From an uncultured Clostridia bacterium (GTDB lineage Bacteria; Bacillota; Clostridia; Christensenellales; UBA1242), in the NCBI GenBank assembly GCA_947624105.1, contig CANQIX010000010.1, positions 1-35,266 of the forward strand: a DNA stretch of 35,266 bases. The letters run 5' to 3'. The position numbers and the translations under genes were made by a program. Of this stretch, positions 4,690 through 10,917 are shown piece by piece. The notes under the pieces are model-generated. The model did not search any database. It was not told the DNA's origin and saw nothing but the letters and a program-made list of their open reading frames with translations. The stretch's first letter is position 1. Each line of letters starts with the position of its first letter.

Positions 4690-4740
4690 AAAAATTATTA
4701 CCTCTTTTTGCAAAATTAACTTGTATAAGTTTCACGCAAT

Positions 4741-4769
4741 ATTTTAGCATACAAAAAATTAAAAAGCAA
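4741..4769 (-). promoter_or_regulatory. Probable promoter of tig-clpP-clpX
   Basis: On the minus strand, TTGCTT (4764-4769), a 17-nt spacer and TAAAAT (4741-4746) preceded by TGC, an extended -10. The start would be near 4734, leaving a leader of about 45 nt. Confidence 0.55.
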
Positions 4770-6163: not shown

Positions 6164-7309
6164 TTAACACGCCATCCAATCGGAATATACCGCATAACCC
6201 TTTGTCGAATCGGATACGAAAACGTGCGTAACTGCGCCGATAATTTTGCCGTTTTGAAGAATTGGAGATCCGCTCATTCCCTGCACTATTCCGCCGGTAA
6301 GTTCCAACAGACGTCTGTCTGTTACGCGGATCACCATACTCTTGTCGTTCGCCTTTTTTTGATAGTTGGCTTTTATTATTTCAATCTCATATTCTTCTCT
6401 TATTCCACTTATGTTAGACACTATGTATGCCTTTCCCGGCGTTACCGACAATCTGCCACCAAGTTGTGCCGTAAGGTTTGTGTCAACAAGTCCGTCTTTG
6501 TTTTCTAACGTGCCTTTTATGCCAAATTTATTGTTGTCTTCAATACTTCCACTGCCATCGCCGCCCTCAACAAAAACGCACCTAAGTTGCCCCGGATTGT
6601 TCCTCTCGCCCTTGTTTATTCCAAGAAGTTCGCACTTGTATATCTTCCCACTTTCCACCGGTATTACGCTTTTGCTTGGCTCTTCGGTTACCGAATGCCC
6701 AAGCGCGCCAAATTTGCCGGTTTTGGTATTTACAAACGTGAGCGTTCCAATGCCGGTAACTTCGTCTTTAACGACCACTCCAAGTTTATATTTTTCCTCA
6801 GTTTTTAGTGTTTTAACAAGGTTTCTTATCTCCTTGTTGTCCCGTATGTATTTTATCTCCACCTCATCGTCCGTCAGTGCATCGGCTATGTCGTCTATTC
6901 GTTCTATCTTTGTGCCGTTTATTTCGGTTATGATGTCGCCTTTCTTTATCGTGTCATTTCCGTCAATCACAACCGCGCCGGCAGTGGTTATCGAAAATCC
7001 TATTGGCACGCCACCGATGTAATAGTCATCTTGCGTGGACATATTGACATACAATTTGCGAATTGGAATAAATCCAAACAGTTTAAAGACGATTTCTCCT
7101 GTGTTTTCGCGCGTCATATCTGTCGATTTGTCCTTTTGCTTTAAATCTCCCCTTACAAACTTGCCAAACACCCCATTTCTGTTCGCCATTTCAACCTCTT
7201 CATAGGTGGTATAGAAGTCGCCTTCAATCTGCATAACTTCAAAAATAGGCACAAATATGAAAAGCGCAAAAAGCATAAAGAAAAAAGAAGAAAGAAACAA
7301 TTTTTTCAT
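6164..7309 (-). CDS. spoIVB: SpoIVB-type serine peptidase (stage IV sporulation, family S55)
   Basis: In Bacillus, SpoIVB is secreted from the forespore into the intermembrane space and cleaves SpoIVFA, starting pro-sigma-K processing. This 381-residue protein has an N-terminal signal-anchor helix (about 4-22), a PDZ domain (about 98-170, with VIDGNDTIKKGDIITEING), and an S55 domain. The triad matches in residue and spacing: His205 in GALGHS, Asp331 in VTDRRLL and Ser346 in GMSGSPI, against His236, Asp363 and Ser378 in the B. subtilis enzyme. It follows the YgjP-like gene by 35 nt and is probably co-transcribed. No strong ribosome binding site precedes the start, but the signal segment makes the start plausible. 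Confidence 0.92.
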   Translation of the reverse strand: MKKLFLSSFFFMLFALFIFVPIFEVMQIEGDFYTTYEEVEMANRNGVFGKFVRGDLKQKDKSTDMTRENTGEIVFKLFGFIPIRKLYVNMSTQDDYYIGGVPIGFSITTAGAVVIDGNDTIKKGDIITEINGTKIERIDDIADALTDDEVEIKYIRDNKEIRNLVKTLKTEEKYKLGVVVKDEVTGIGTLTFVNTKTGKFGALGHSVTEEPSKSVIPVESGKIYKCELLGINKGERNNPGQLRCVFVEGGDGSGSIEDNNKFGIKGTLENKDGLVDTNLTAQLGGRLSVTPGKAYIVSNISGIREEYEIEIIKANYQKKANDKSMVIRVTDRRLLELTGGIVQGMSGSPILQNGKIIGAVTHVFVSDSTKGYAVYSDWMAC

Positions 7310-8147: not shown

Positions 8148-8177
8148 TTGACAAGGATATTAAATAAATTATATAAT
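8148..8177 (+). promoter_or_regulatory. Promoter of the PadR-like gene
   Basis: TTGACA (8148-8153), an 18-nt spacer and TATAAT (8172-8177), both perfect. The ATG at 8202 follows with AGGAGGTG at 8189-8196. Confidence 0.8.
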
Positions 8178-8201
8178 ATAAGTGCAATAGGAGGTGAAAG
8201 T

Positions 8202-9974
8202 ATGACATTCAACTCTAACGGACTTATACAATACTTGATTTTAGATTCCCTTTCAAGCGGTTCAAAATATGGGCTTGAAATAATCGAATCGATTTCAAAA
8301 CGCACAAATGGCGGATATATTTTAAAAAAGCCAACTCTTTATTCTTGCCTTACTCGCCTAGAAAAAAGAGGTTACATTTTTTCCTCATATTGGGGAGAAA
8401 GCGAACTTGGCGGAAAGCGTCATTACTACTCACTCACAAAAACCGGACGTGAAAATCTGTCGTTAAATTCAAACGAATTTGAACAGATGCTAAGCGACTA
8501 TAAATCTGGCAACTTTATTAGCGAAGAAGAAAAAGAACCCGTTGTCGCCCAAAGCAGCACAGCAGATAACACAACAGAAGAAAAACCAGTATACCTTGAA
8601 CAAAAGACTTTGTTTGAAGATGCAATAAGCAGTAAGAAAACTCAAAAGGAAGAACAGCCACAAAATCAAGTGATCGACAATCAAATCGACCTTTTCAGTT
8701 TTGCTTCAACTGTTGCTGCTGAGGAAAAGAAAGAGGAGGAAGAACGCAAAGATGATGCCGTTTTCATCACCGACCCTATCCCAGAGCAAAGCAGCACCCT
8801 AACCGAAACTCAACTTGAACAGAACAAGAAGATTTACGACACTTCAAGCGAACTTAAAAAATATCGCAGCAAGAAGAGTTTTGCCGACAATCAAATCGAA
8901 ATCCCTGTTGTATACACCGACAAGCAAGACGAGGAAGACACAAAAGCAAAGATTGCCGCTTTGAAACAGAGTTTGCTTGATGCAAAACAAAGTTACAACA
9001 CAAATAACTATTATTCAAACTCAATTTACACAAACGTTTCGCAAGAACAAACGGAAGAGCGCGAAGAAGAAAATAAACCTCGTCCATCGTTCATCGATCG
9101 CATTGAAGAACATCGCGGAGAAGTTTACACTCGCCCAACCTATTACAAGCAACCAGAACCTTTGACGGAAACACAGCCAGCAAAACCATCTCCAGACGAT
9201 GCAGTGTTCATTACGGCGTCAGTTGATGCGGATAAGATTCAATATCAAAAGCGCATCGCTCCACCAAATATCGAAATAAGTGTATCTGCCGAAAATCTCC
9301 CAGCGCCAATGAGAGATAGCAAACTTGAACCAACCTACAAAGATATGGTTTCAAAGATTATGGAAAAGAAAAAGGAAAAGCCTGCTCCTCAAAGTGAACT
9401 AAGCGATGAGATTTCAGAGCCTGCCTACAAAAACGCTTATGCTGACAGCAGTTACGTTGATGGCGAATTGAACTTTGTCGACTATGAAACTTTGAAGAAT
9501 TATTATTCAACGCACGGCATAACCTTTAAAGAATACCGCAAAACAAAGGTTGAACGCATACACAACACAAACTTCTTAAACTTCATTGCTTCTGCAATTT
9601 TACTTCTTTTAAGCGCTGTTGGAAGTGGACTTATATACCTAATCACCTGGGCTTGCCACTTGCTTATGCCAGCAACCAACTTTATGTATTACACAATCAT
9701 AATCGCTTTTGCAGTGTTTGTTGCAGTTGAATTTATACTCTACAAATTTACAAACAGCAAAAAAGCGTCCTTAAAATATGACGCAATAGTAAACTGGATA
9801 ATCTTCCTACTCTCCTGTGTTGTAATACTTGTTGTAAACGTATGCTTTGGAATGCAAGTTGAAAACTTTGCAACTTTCCTCACTTCAATGCTTGTGCCTG
9901 CATTTGCTATTCTGCTTATTTTCCCAATCAACTTCCACATTAGAAAGTTCTTATACAAAAAATTTGCAAAATAG
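8202..9974 (+). CDS. PadR-type transcriptional regulator with a long linker and four C-terminal membrane helices
   Basis: The 590-residue product begins with a PadR winged-helix domain (about 8-95): LILDSLSSGSKYGLEII, the recognition helix region KKPTLYSCLTRLEKRGYI, and the wing RHYYSLTKTG. A charged, Gln/Glu-rich, low-complexity linker of about 350 residues follows, containing DDAVFIT twice (184-190 and 332-338). Four hydrophobic helices lie at about 457-483, 494-515, 529-552 and 560-583, ending in a basic tail. Soluble PadR regulators are 100-200 residues, so this would be a membrane-tethered repressor. An in-frame TTG at 8148 is really the -35 box; the ATG at 8202 has AGGAGG. It is transcribed alone and followed by two small-RNA-like units. 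Ligand and targets are unknown. Confidence 0.8.
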   Translation: MTFNSNGLIQYLILDSLSSGSKYGLEIIESISKRTNGGYILKKPTLYSCLTRLEKRGYIFSSYWGESELGGKRHYYSLTKTGRENLSLNSNEFEQMLSDYKSGNFISEEEKEPVVAQSSTADNTTEEKPVYLEQKTLFEDAISSKKTQKEEQPQNQVIDNQIDLFSFASTVAAEEKKEEEERKDDAVFITDPIPEQSSTLTETQLEQNKKIYDTSSELKKYRSKKSFADNQIEIPVVYTDKQDEEDTKAKIAALKQSLLDAKQSYNTNNYYSNSIYTNVSQEQTEEREEENKPRPSFIDRIEEHRGEVYTRPTYYKQPEPLTETQPAKPSPDDAVFITASVDADKIQYQKRIAPPNIEISVSAENLPAPMRDSKLEPTYKDMVSKIMEKKKEKPAPQSELSDEISEPAYKNAYADSSYVDGELNFVDYETLKNYYSTHGITFKEYRKTKVERIHNTNFLNFIASAILLLLSAVGSGLIYLITWACHLLMPATNFMYYTIIIAFAVFVAVEFILYKFTNSKKASLKYDAIVNWIIFLLSCVVILVVNVCFGMQVENFATFLTSMLVPAFAILLIFPINFHIRKFLYKKFAK

Positions 9975-10004
9975 TGAATAATTTGCAAAATCGCGCATAT
10001 ATTA
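9975..10004 (+). promoter_or_regulatory. Possible promoter of tandem RNA unit 1
   Basis: TGAATA (9975-9980), 15 nt, then CATATATTA (9996-10004). The stretch matches the better sigma-G-like site of unit 2 base for base over much of its length, but its spacing is 2 nt shorter. It starts directly at the stop of the PadR-like gene. Confidence 0.35.
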
Positions 10005-10010
10005 TTAATA

Positions 10011-10104
10011 GGTTAGCGCAAATGCTAACCACTTAAAGGGCTCTACAACAGCCCTATCCGAGAAAGAAAGAGGTCATATCAATCAGTTTTCCTCTTTCTT
10101 TTTT
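10011..10104 (+). ncRNA. Candidate small RNA, tandem unit 1
   Basis: Three hairpins in 94 nt: GGTTAGC/GCTAACC (10011-10017 with 10024-10030), AGGGCT/AGCCCT (10037-10042 with 10050-10055), and a 10-bp terminator stem AAGAAAGAGG/CCTCTTTCTT (10064-10073 with 10091-10100) followed by T. No reading frame of note. It shares its upstream element and the shape of its terminator loop with unit 2. It could instead be the structured 3' end of the PadR-like mRNA. Confidence 0.5.
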
Positions 10105-10139
10105 GTTGCCTAAGTTGGTGTAAAAAATTTTAATAATTG

Positions 10140-10169
10140 TGAATAAGATTTTAAAATACGCGCATAGTA
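10140..10169 (+). promoter_or_regulatory. Sigma-G-like promoter of tandem RNA unit 2
   Basis: TGAATA (10140-10145), exactly 17 nt, then CATAGTA (10163-10169), close to the B. subtilis sigma-G pattern of TGAATA-type -35 and CATnnTA -10. No good sigma-A alternative is seen. Sporulation genes elsewhere in the window make a forespore promoter plausible. Confidence 0.45.
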
Positions 10170-10174
10170 TATCT

Positions 10175-10250
10175 GTGCTTAGAAAGAGAACTTCTTAGCA
10201 CCTTAGAAGAGAGAACTTGGCATCAGTCAATCTTCTCTTTTCTTTTTTTT
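10175..10250 (+). ncRNA. Candidate small RNA, tandem unit 2
   Basis: GTGCT (10175-10179) pairs with AGCAC (10197-10201), with AGAA/TTCT inside; then a terminator stem AGAAGAGA (10205-10212) with TCTCTTTT (10234-10241) and a run of eight T (10243-10250). The 3' end is antisense to the last codons of the convergent COG2426 gene, so the terminator doubles as coding DNA on the other strand. Confidence 0.5.
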
Positions 10251-10840
10251 ATCGCCCTTCTAAATATAAAGACGATAAGCGACACAAGAAGATACGCAGC
10301 AATAACGCAGATGGACGCTATAAGCACATAAAACGCCGAATTTTCAAACAAGCAACAAAGCATTAGCATAATTAAGCAACTTGCAAGATCTCCCACCATA
10401 ACCGCCAAAAACGACTGCCAAGGCTTCAAACTGCTTAAGCCTGCAATAATGCTGCCACTATACACTCCCGTAAGAGGTAGTGGCACAGCAACAAATGCAG
10501 CAAGCGCAAACAACTTATAGATGTTTTTGCCTTTTTCGTTTATCTTGCCCACCTGTTTTTCATATTTGACTTGCATATTGTGATAAAAGCGTTCGTAGAT
10601 AAACCCACTTGTCTTCTTTTTTATCGCCCGAAACAGAAATATCACAATTACGCAAACAATCGCTCCGCCCAGCAGCGTTATGAGGACAGCGGTAAGTGGA
10701 CTAAGCGTTTTATCTCCCCAAACAGCAACCGACAGCGCGAGCGGAATCGCAAGTTTTGTTTCTAATGTCGGTATCATTGCCACTAAAAGCACGGCAACTG
10801 CCACACAACTTGAAAAATTATCAGCCAAAAATTCAATCAT
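10223..10840 (-). CDS. COG2426 / small multidrug export family membrane protein
   Basis: A 205-residue integral membrane protein of the PF06695 (Sm_multidrug_ex, COG2426) family, whose transport role is poorly established. The family signature is visible: MIPTLETKLAIPLAL near the N-terminus, a second conserved loop PLPLTGVYSGSIIAG, and about five or six hydrophobic helices with a basic cytoplasmic segment in the middle and a Lys/Arg-rich tail. The ATG at 10840 has GAAGGTG 4-5 nt upstream; the longer frame to 10885 runs through probable promoter DNA. Its 3' end overlaps, antisense, the terminator of RNA unit 2. Confidence 0.75.
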   Translation of the reverse strand: MIEFLADNFSSCVAVAVLLVAMIPTLETKLAIPLALSVAVWGDKTLSPLTAVLITLLGGAIVCVIVIFLFRAIKKKTSGFIYERFYHNMQVKYEKQVGKINEKGKNIYKLFALAAFVAVPLPLTGVYSGSIIAGLSSLKPWQSFLAVMVGDLASCLIMLMLCCLFENSAFYVLIASICVIAAYLLVSLIVFIFRRAIKKRKEKID

Positions 10841-10917
10841 ACACACCTTCAAAAGTCTACAATAAAATATATAAAGCAATAACAAAAAATATTCTCACTC
10901 GTTGCACAAAATTTGAT

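Follow-up and report, generated by a model that had tools for sequence, protein, structure and literature searches.

Tandem small-RNA-like units with sigma-G-type promoters in an uncultured lineage of Clostridia

The locus and its two units

The window analyzed here is a stretch of 35,266 nucleotides from an uncultured Clostridia bacterium, the genome of which comprises 958,864 bases in 50 contigs and is 98.25% complete. Two short units, which a preliminary description had taken for a pair of small-RNA-like elements, both lie between a padR-like gene and a gene for a putative small multi-drug export protein (Sm_multidrug_ex), which form a convergent pair. The PadR-like protein, which is encoded in 110 of the 112 genomes of the genus, carries, joined to its PadR-like domain, a long C-terminal region, the end of which looks membrane-spanning. 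The product of spoIVB, located farther upstream, just missed the cut-off of the NCBIfam model TIGR02860 (290 bits; cut-off, 305). The features of the window that are relevant here are the following:

308-444, + strand: ribosomal protein L10 leader (RF00557, 69.9 bits)
4722-4751, + strand: third loose sigma-G-type match, TGTATA-17-TAGCATA
6164-7309, − strand: spoIVB, S55 peptidase family (PF05580)
8148-9974, + strand: gene for the PadR-like protein (PF03551; 608 aa as listed from a TTG start); upstream neighbor and synteny anchor
9975-9980, + strand: unit 1 −35 box TGAATA (sigma-G type), directly 3' of the padR-like stop codon (9972-9974)
9998-10004, + strand: unit 1 −10 box TATATTA, 17 nt from the −35 box, with one mismatch to CATNNTA; placed by alignment with relatives
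10011-10030, + strand: unit 1 hairpin 1 (GGTTAGC...GCTAACC), the conserved 5' hairpin, based on folding
10037-10055, + strand: unit 1 extra hairpin (AGGGCT...AGCCCT), by eye absent from the other rows of alignment A2 (see below)
10059-10105, + strand: unit 1 Rho-independent terminator
10140-10145, + strand: unit 2 −35 box TGAATA
10163-10169, + strand: unit 2 −10 box CATAGTA, 17 nt from the −35 box
10175-10201, + strand: unit 2 hairpin 1 (GTGCTTAG...CTTAGCAC), beginning 5 nt past the −10 box
10205-10250, + strand: unit 2 Rho-independent terminator, overlapping the 3' end of the opposite-strand Sm_multidrug_ex gene
10223-10885, − strand: Sm_multidrug_ex gene (PF06695), the downstream convergent neighbor

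The upstream boxes from which the preliminary description started are located where it had placed them, with GTGAATAA at 9974 and 10139 and CGCGCATA at 9992-9999 and 10159-10166. They do not form a matching layout, as CGCGCATA starts 18 nt after the start of GTGAATAA in unit 1 and 20 nt after it in unit 2 and is, therefore, out of register. We take TGAATA and CATNNTA to be the sigma-G form, and the consensus of the genus may differ from it. On this basis, the sigma-G-type promoter proposed for unit 2 stands, while its restriction to unit 2 does not, since unit 1 has TGAATA-17-TATATTA; this promoter had been overlooked because the CGCGCATA box of unit 1 sits two bases out of register. With the two units aligned on the hairpin, the distance from the −10 box to the first hairpin is 5-6 nt in both. 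Also, unit 2 is not devoid of a sigma-A alternative as had been claimed: a weak sigma-70-like sequence (TTAATA-16-TAAAAT; 9/12) is located at 10130-10157. This match weighs little either way because a scan of 801 nt returned six sigma-70-like matches versus 2.1 in shuffled sequences.

On both strands of the window, a loose sigma-G motif has three matches, two of which are the units (50 shuffles: mean, 0.52; maximum, 4). The exact pattern TGAATA-N15..19-CATANTA has two matches in the genome, of which one is unit 2, and the reversed-pattern control has one; the second exact site, with a spacing of 18, is antisense inside a reading frame and was set aside. Within the window alone, the promoter motif is thus suggestive evidence for the units, and it is the relatives that make the case.

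Each unit has the hairpin and the terminator that had been described, although the two differ in that unit 1 folds into three hairpins and unit 2 into two. Compared with dinucleotide-preserving shuffles, the folding of 9999-10110 (unit 1) has a z score of −6.5, with none of 200 shuffles as good, and that of 10168-10253 (unit 2) a z score of −3.1, with one of 200 as good. We infer that the unit 1 RNA starts near 10010-10012. As noted previously, the terminators share a block, which spans 27 nt at 78% identity (10078-10104 versus 10222-10248). The reading frame of the convergent gene ends inside the unit 2 terminator, such that 10223-10250 carries codons on one strand and a terminator on the other; this overlap with the coding 3' end of the neighbor places an extra constraint on the sequence of the terminator. 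Among open reading frames (ORFs) of at least 20 aa, neither unit has a usable one, consistent with the preliminary description. The plus-strand ORF starting at unit 1 (9974-10036) has 20 aa and a GTG start, while the ORF over unit 2 (10217-10366) has 49 aa and a TTG start that lies inside the terminator.

Conservation of promoters and stems in relatives

To follow the units by synteny, 3' flanks of the padR-like gene were inspected in 90 genomes, including that of the window. Based on promoter score and inspection by eye, a unit consisting of promoter, 5' hairpin, and terminator is present in 45 of these 90 flanks. Its common form in relatives is AAGTTAAG-loop-CTTAACTT, followed by an A-rich linker, GAAAAGAGAT...ATCTCTTTTC, and a T run. 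In several close relatives, the next gene follows directly after padR, and in some relatives, there is just a plain terminator 3' of padR. The strict promoter form TGAATA-17-CANNNTA occurs in 23 of the 90 flanks and in none on the other strand, with a mean of 0.13 and a maximum of 1 in 100 shuffles; a looser form occurs in 32, again with none on the other strand (shuffles: mean, 0.48). Among 33 hits in relatives that were chosen by the promoter alone, 22 have a 7-bp stem starting 6 nt past the −10 box, versus 1.2 in shuffles. By DNA similarity to a 301-nt stretch (E ≤ 1), matches were obtained in 57 of 61 genomes, mostly 16-45 nt long and at chance level.

Covariation of the stems was assessed in two alignments. 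A1 comprises 39 relatives and none of the window sequence; it is a MAFFT sequence alignment and was not fitted to a structure. RNAalifold predicts two helices in A1 with 15 pairs, of which 10 have double changes, and in helix 1 both sides vary at six of seven pairs. The covariation score of A1 is 0.404 versus 0.211 in shuffles, and none of 500 shuffles reaches it; double changes were counted in 65 cells versus 17.4 in shuffles. A1 itself was the source of the predicted structure, and relatedness alone can lift sequences above shuffles even if they have no structure, so that controls in which the pairing was slid matter: 95.0% of the 585 cells of A1 are paired, compared with at most 60.8% after sliding by 1-3 columns. 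Similarly, A2, which comprises 37 rows with promoters and includes both window units, has 89.2% of its cells paired and at most 63.6% after sliding. Across 27 rows, the inner helix of the terminator loop has 100 of its 108 cells paired, versus 28-62 when slid. As the terminators are A/T-rich, terminator function by itself could account for the conservation of the second helix. Compensating base changes, which the preliminary description had suggested looking for, are present in the stems of relatives, clearly in excess of the controls. The same description had named a lack of conservation of stems and upstream boxes as an outcome that would speak against it; both are conserved, and the stems carry compensating changes.

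A covariance model (R1) built from A1, and thus made without the window, ranks unit 1 first (26.9 bits, E = 0.021) and unit 2 second (26.0 bits, E = 0.029) among 27 matches in the window with filters off. The third match is the antisense strand of unit 2 (23.8 bits). In the genome search, R1 reports matches in 47 of the 112 genomes of the genus at E ≤ 0.1; genome G000 has no R1 report under the stricter filters of this search. Among the R1 hits away from the locus with E > 0.001, those viewed (L157-L169) looked like plain terminators, tails of coding sequences, or chance matches.

A second model (R2) was built from A2 with the promoter included, such that its matches to the window units are by construction. 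In the genome of the window, R2 reports solely the two units. At E ≤ 0.1, it has hits in 92 of the 112 genomes of the genus (89 at E ≤ 0.001), and 20 genomes have no R2 hit. Among the 92 positive genomes, 33 gave training rows and 59 did not. At the level of the family, 27 of 98 genomes have R2 hits at E ≤ 0.1, a threshold at which about 10 chance hits are expected; 23 of these genomes are outside the genus, with hits at 25 places. By eye, 13 of these places were read as convincing (L211, L212, L213, L243, L245, L246, L247, L249, L250, L252, L254, L259, and L263), 2 as borderline (L244 and L248), and 10 as chance matches. A search at the level of the order, a weak test in which nine candidates per genome were scored, gave hits in 26 of 396 genomes at E ≤ 0.05, with 19 in the genus; outside the family, L214 was the sole hit read as convincing. 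Altogether, these sequence comparisons support that the RNA family spans this genus and, more weakly, its family.

Copies of the element are not confined to padR. In three genomes (G011, G084, and G065), the RNA is flanked by a tyrosine recombinase-like gene and spoIVB (L206, L208, and L209; Pfam was used to check the neighbor families at L206 and the spoIVB at L209), and its hairpin is GTGAAGGAGATATGCTTCAC or a near copy. In G023, one copy is 3' of spoIVB on the same strand. G133, G093, and G089 have a second copy, located where a gene with an HD domain ends (domain found with Pfam in G093); we take this gene to encode RNase Y. Outside the genus, the hit L211 adjoins transketolase and uvrA genes, and L214, in another family of the order, lies between ksgA- and tatD-type genes. 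A rho gene, taken by eye as the neighbor at L156, has no Pfam match, and we do not claim it. The location of copies beside spoIVB and other, changing genes argues that the element is a gene of its own rather than a padR tail. The hairpin form GTGAAGGAGATATGCTTCAC or a near copy, with AAGGAG at the loop, is found at L206, L208, L209, L210, L220, and L080 and often adjoins spoIVB.

Tandem pairs were called by R2 in G005 and G026 and by eye in G119 (L080), giving a total of 4 of 112 genomes by this count. A simple tandem duplication as the origin of the two window units is not supported, since each unit is nearer to the units of at least a dozen relatives than to its partner; in global alignments of the transcripts, the partner unit is at ranks 13 and 15 among 37, counted from 0 with self as 0. 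We therefore reject a recent tandem duplication of the pair, as the units are closer to those of other species. Rather, the alignments suggest that both units are family members without being each other's closest relatives.

Sporulation genes of the genus and comparison with known RNAs

The best match of the sigma-G model in the genome of the window scores 385 bits, and the next, C45, which we read as sigma-F, scores 231.7 bits. The curated sigma-G cut-off of 457 bits is reached by none of the best matches of the 112 genomes; such scores may simply reflect the distance of the lineage. In seven of the 112 genomes, there is no sigma-G match better than ~1e-70 (G028, G094, G103, G115, G119, G126, and G129). 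While several of these seven are incomplete, G028 has a stated completeness of 98%. An R2 hit is nevertheless kept in five (G028, G115, G119, G126, and G129). The absence of sigma-G thus failed as a natural control because nearly all genomes have it and five of the seven apparent exceptions keep the RNA. Genes for alpha/beta SASP (PF00269) were not detected in any of the 16 genus members searched (G000-G015) and were found in 1 of the 26 genomes searched in total, although a sigma-G-like gene and spoIVB are present. Consequently, SASP promoters are unusable as a yardstick. Upstream regions of spoIVB, used as a promoter yardstick, have a score of ≥1.5 in 1 of 16 cases, and there is none in the window.

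When the window was compared with 4,227 Rfam families, the L10 leader alone reached its gathering threshold; likewise, at 20 loci of relatives, the gathering score was reached only by an L10 leader beside the L210 copy. With E values up to 10, the region 9900-10320 has weak matches far below the cut-offs, and the ylbH element RF00516 is not among them. Consistently, a literature search of titles and abstracts yielded no named RNA of this layout in this lineage. The absence of a named family, as stated in the preliminary description, thus agrees with the lack of Rfam gathering-score matches to the units. In one survey of human microbiomes, structured RNAs were reportedly predicted by the thousands (PMC8040213), and this element could be among them without a name.

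Among described RNAs, three invite comparison. CsfG of Bacillus subtilis is a small non-coding forespore RNA under the control of sigma-F and sigma-G, without a known mRNA target (PMC9147052, PMC3574147), and it has CU-rich conserved stretches in terminal loops or between helices (PMC3574147). The units share with CsfG a small-RNA, forespore-type setting in endospore formers, based here on the promoters; they differ from it in being shorter, at another location, and in having a conserved 5' hairpin whose distance from the promoter is fixed. Bvs196/S547 of Bacillus velezensis and B. subtilis is a forespore sporulation sRNA mainly controlled by sigma-G, the deletion of which changes spore resistance (PMC9147052). 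It is a Bacillus RNA of 294 nt, while the units are predicted to have ~76-96 nt, and the comparison is by description rather than by sequence. Finally, a few ncRNA start sites of Clostridioides difficile have promoters that are probably read by sporulation sigma factors (PMC7438776); the similarity in promoter type is likewise one of description and not of sequence.

Proposed function and alternative explanations

Based on the sequence comparisons, the units are quite likely non-coding RNAs that are independently transcribed from sigma-G-type promoters, and the best reading is that they look like members of a new family of sigma-G-driven sporulation small RNAs. In this model, the two units would be independent small RNA genes. 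Their RNAs would measure ~96 nt (near 10010-10105) and ~76 nt (near 10175-10250), and the transcription of each would start from a sigma-G-type promoter belonging to the unit itself and stop at the unit's terminator. With such promoters, transcription by sigma-G would be expected inside the forespore at a late stage of sporulation. The RNA would begin at the base of the 5' hairpin and would thereby have its 5' end protected.

We speculate that the RNA perhaps acts in trans on forespore mRNAs via its less paired linker and loops, a function that we give somewhat less than an even chance. Other sporulation sRNAs are thought to act in this way, and by analogy, the combination of a sporulation-type promoter, a structured 5' end, a terminator, and no reading frame would be the design of a trans-acting small RNA; CsfG and Bvs196 are forespore RNAs of this type. 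It is improbable that the units belong to a widespread class of forespore RNAs in which the 5' hairpin itself is the working part and the RNA, as a decoy, sequesters a translation regulator or ribosomes at the shutdown of the forespore. This hairpin occurs in variants, of which one branch is GTGAAGGAGATATGCTTCAC with the Shine-Dalgarno-like AAGGAG at the loop, while others have AGGTTA, GTAAGG, or GTAAAG stems.

The location of the units between convergent genes and the strong terminators in which they end fit with another explanation, i.e., that they are mere terminators and 3' tails of the padR-like mRNA and the convergent neighbor and that the promoter match is accidental in A/T-rich DNA; the relatives in which padR has a plain terminator and no more point in the same direction. 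However, the strict promoter is confined to one strand and far exceeds its frequency in shuffles, and the 5' hairpin covaries, is at a fixed distance from the promoter, and is found in copies that adjoin other genes, making this explanation unlikely. The units could also be short mRNAs for forespore micro-peptides, given that forespore genes for very small proteins exist and that the second hairpin form in relatives has a string of AAGGAG and ATG. In this string, however, the ATG is just 2 nt away from AAGGAG and the frame stops after 4-5 codons (L210 and L208); moreover, in 33 hits of relatives, the longest ORFs found up to 100 nt from the promoter have 4-30 codons without a fixed length, and the window units have no frame of note. 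We consider micro-peptides very unlikely.

More specific alternatives concern the identity of the RNA and of the sigma factor. That the units are divergent members of CsfG, with which they would share the setting of a small RNA under sigma-F/sigma-G control in an endospore-former lineage (PMC9147052, PMC3574147), is hardly credible: RF00516, which covers the csfG region on the opposite strand, is over its cut-off in none of 61 genomes on either strand, 37 of them of this genus, while the B. subtilis control was positive; the sub-threshold match in G051 looks like a chance match to a terminator; the YlbG family PF09902 is absent from the genome of the window (the B. subtilis control was positive), such that the location of CsfG between ylbG and ylbH has no counterpart; and CsfG-type CU-rich conserved loops were not seen by inspection of A1 and A2. 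Transcription by sigma-F, or by sigma-F and sigma-G jointly, instead of sigma-G alone is a more serious contender, even if we consider it the less probable case. The sigma-F and sigma-G promoter sequences of C. difficile overlap (PMC7438776), and C45, the weaker sigma match read as sigma-F, is present in the genome. By contrast, TGAATA/CATNNTA, in the form noted above, argues for sigma-G.

We favor the reading of the units as sigma-G-type small RNAs, and they would add to the few small RNAs known to be switched on inside the forespore, of which CsfG, according to PMC9147052, has no identified mRNA target. Moreover, our findings suggest that the lineage keeps a working forespore program although SASP were undetected in the 16 genus members searched. 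These candidate RNAs, which form a compact family with clear promoters and numerous natural variants in uncultured bacteria whose genomes measure ~1 Mb, would provide a testable set across dozens of species.
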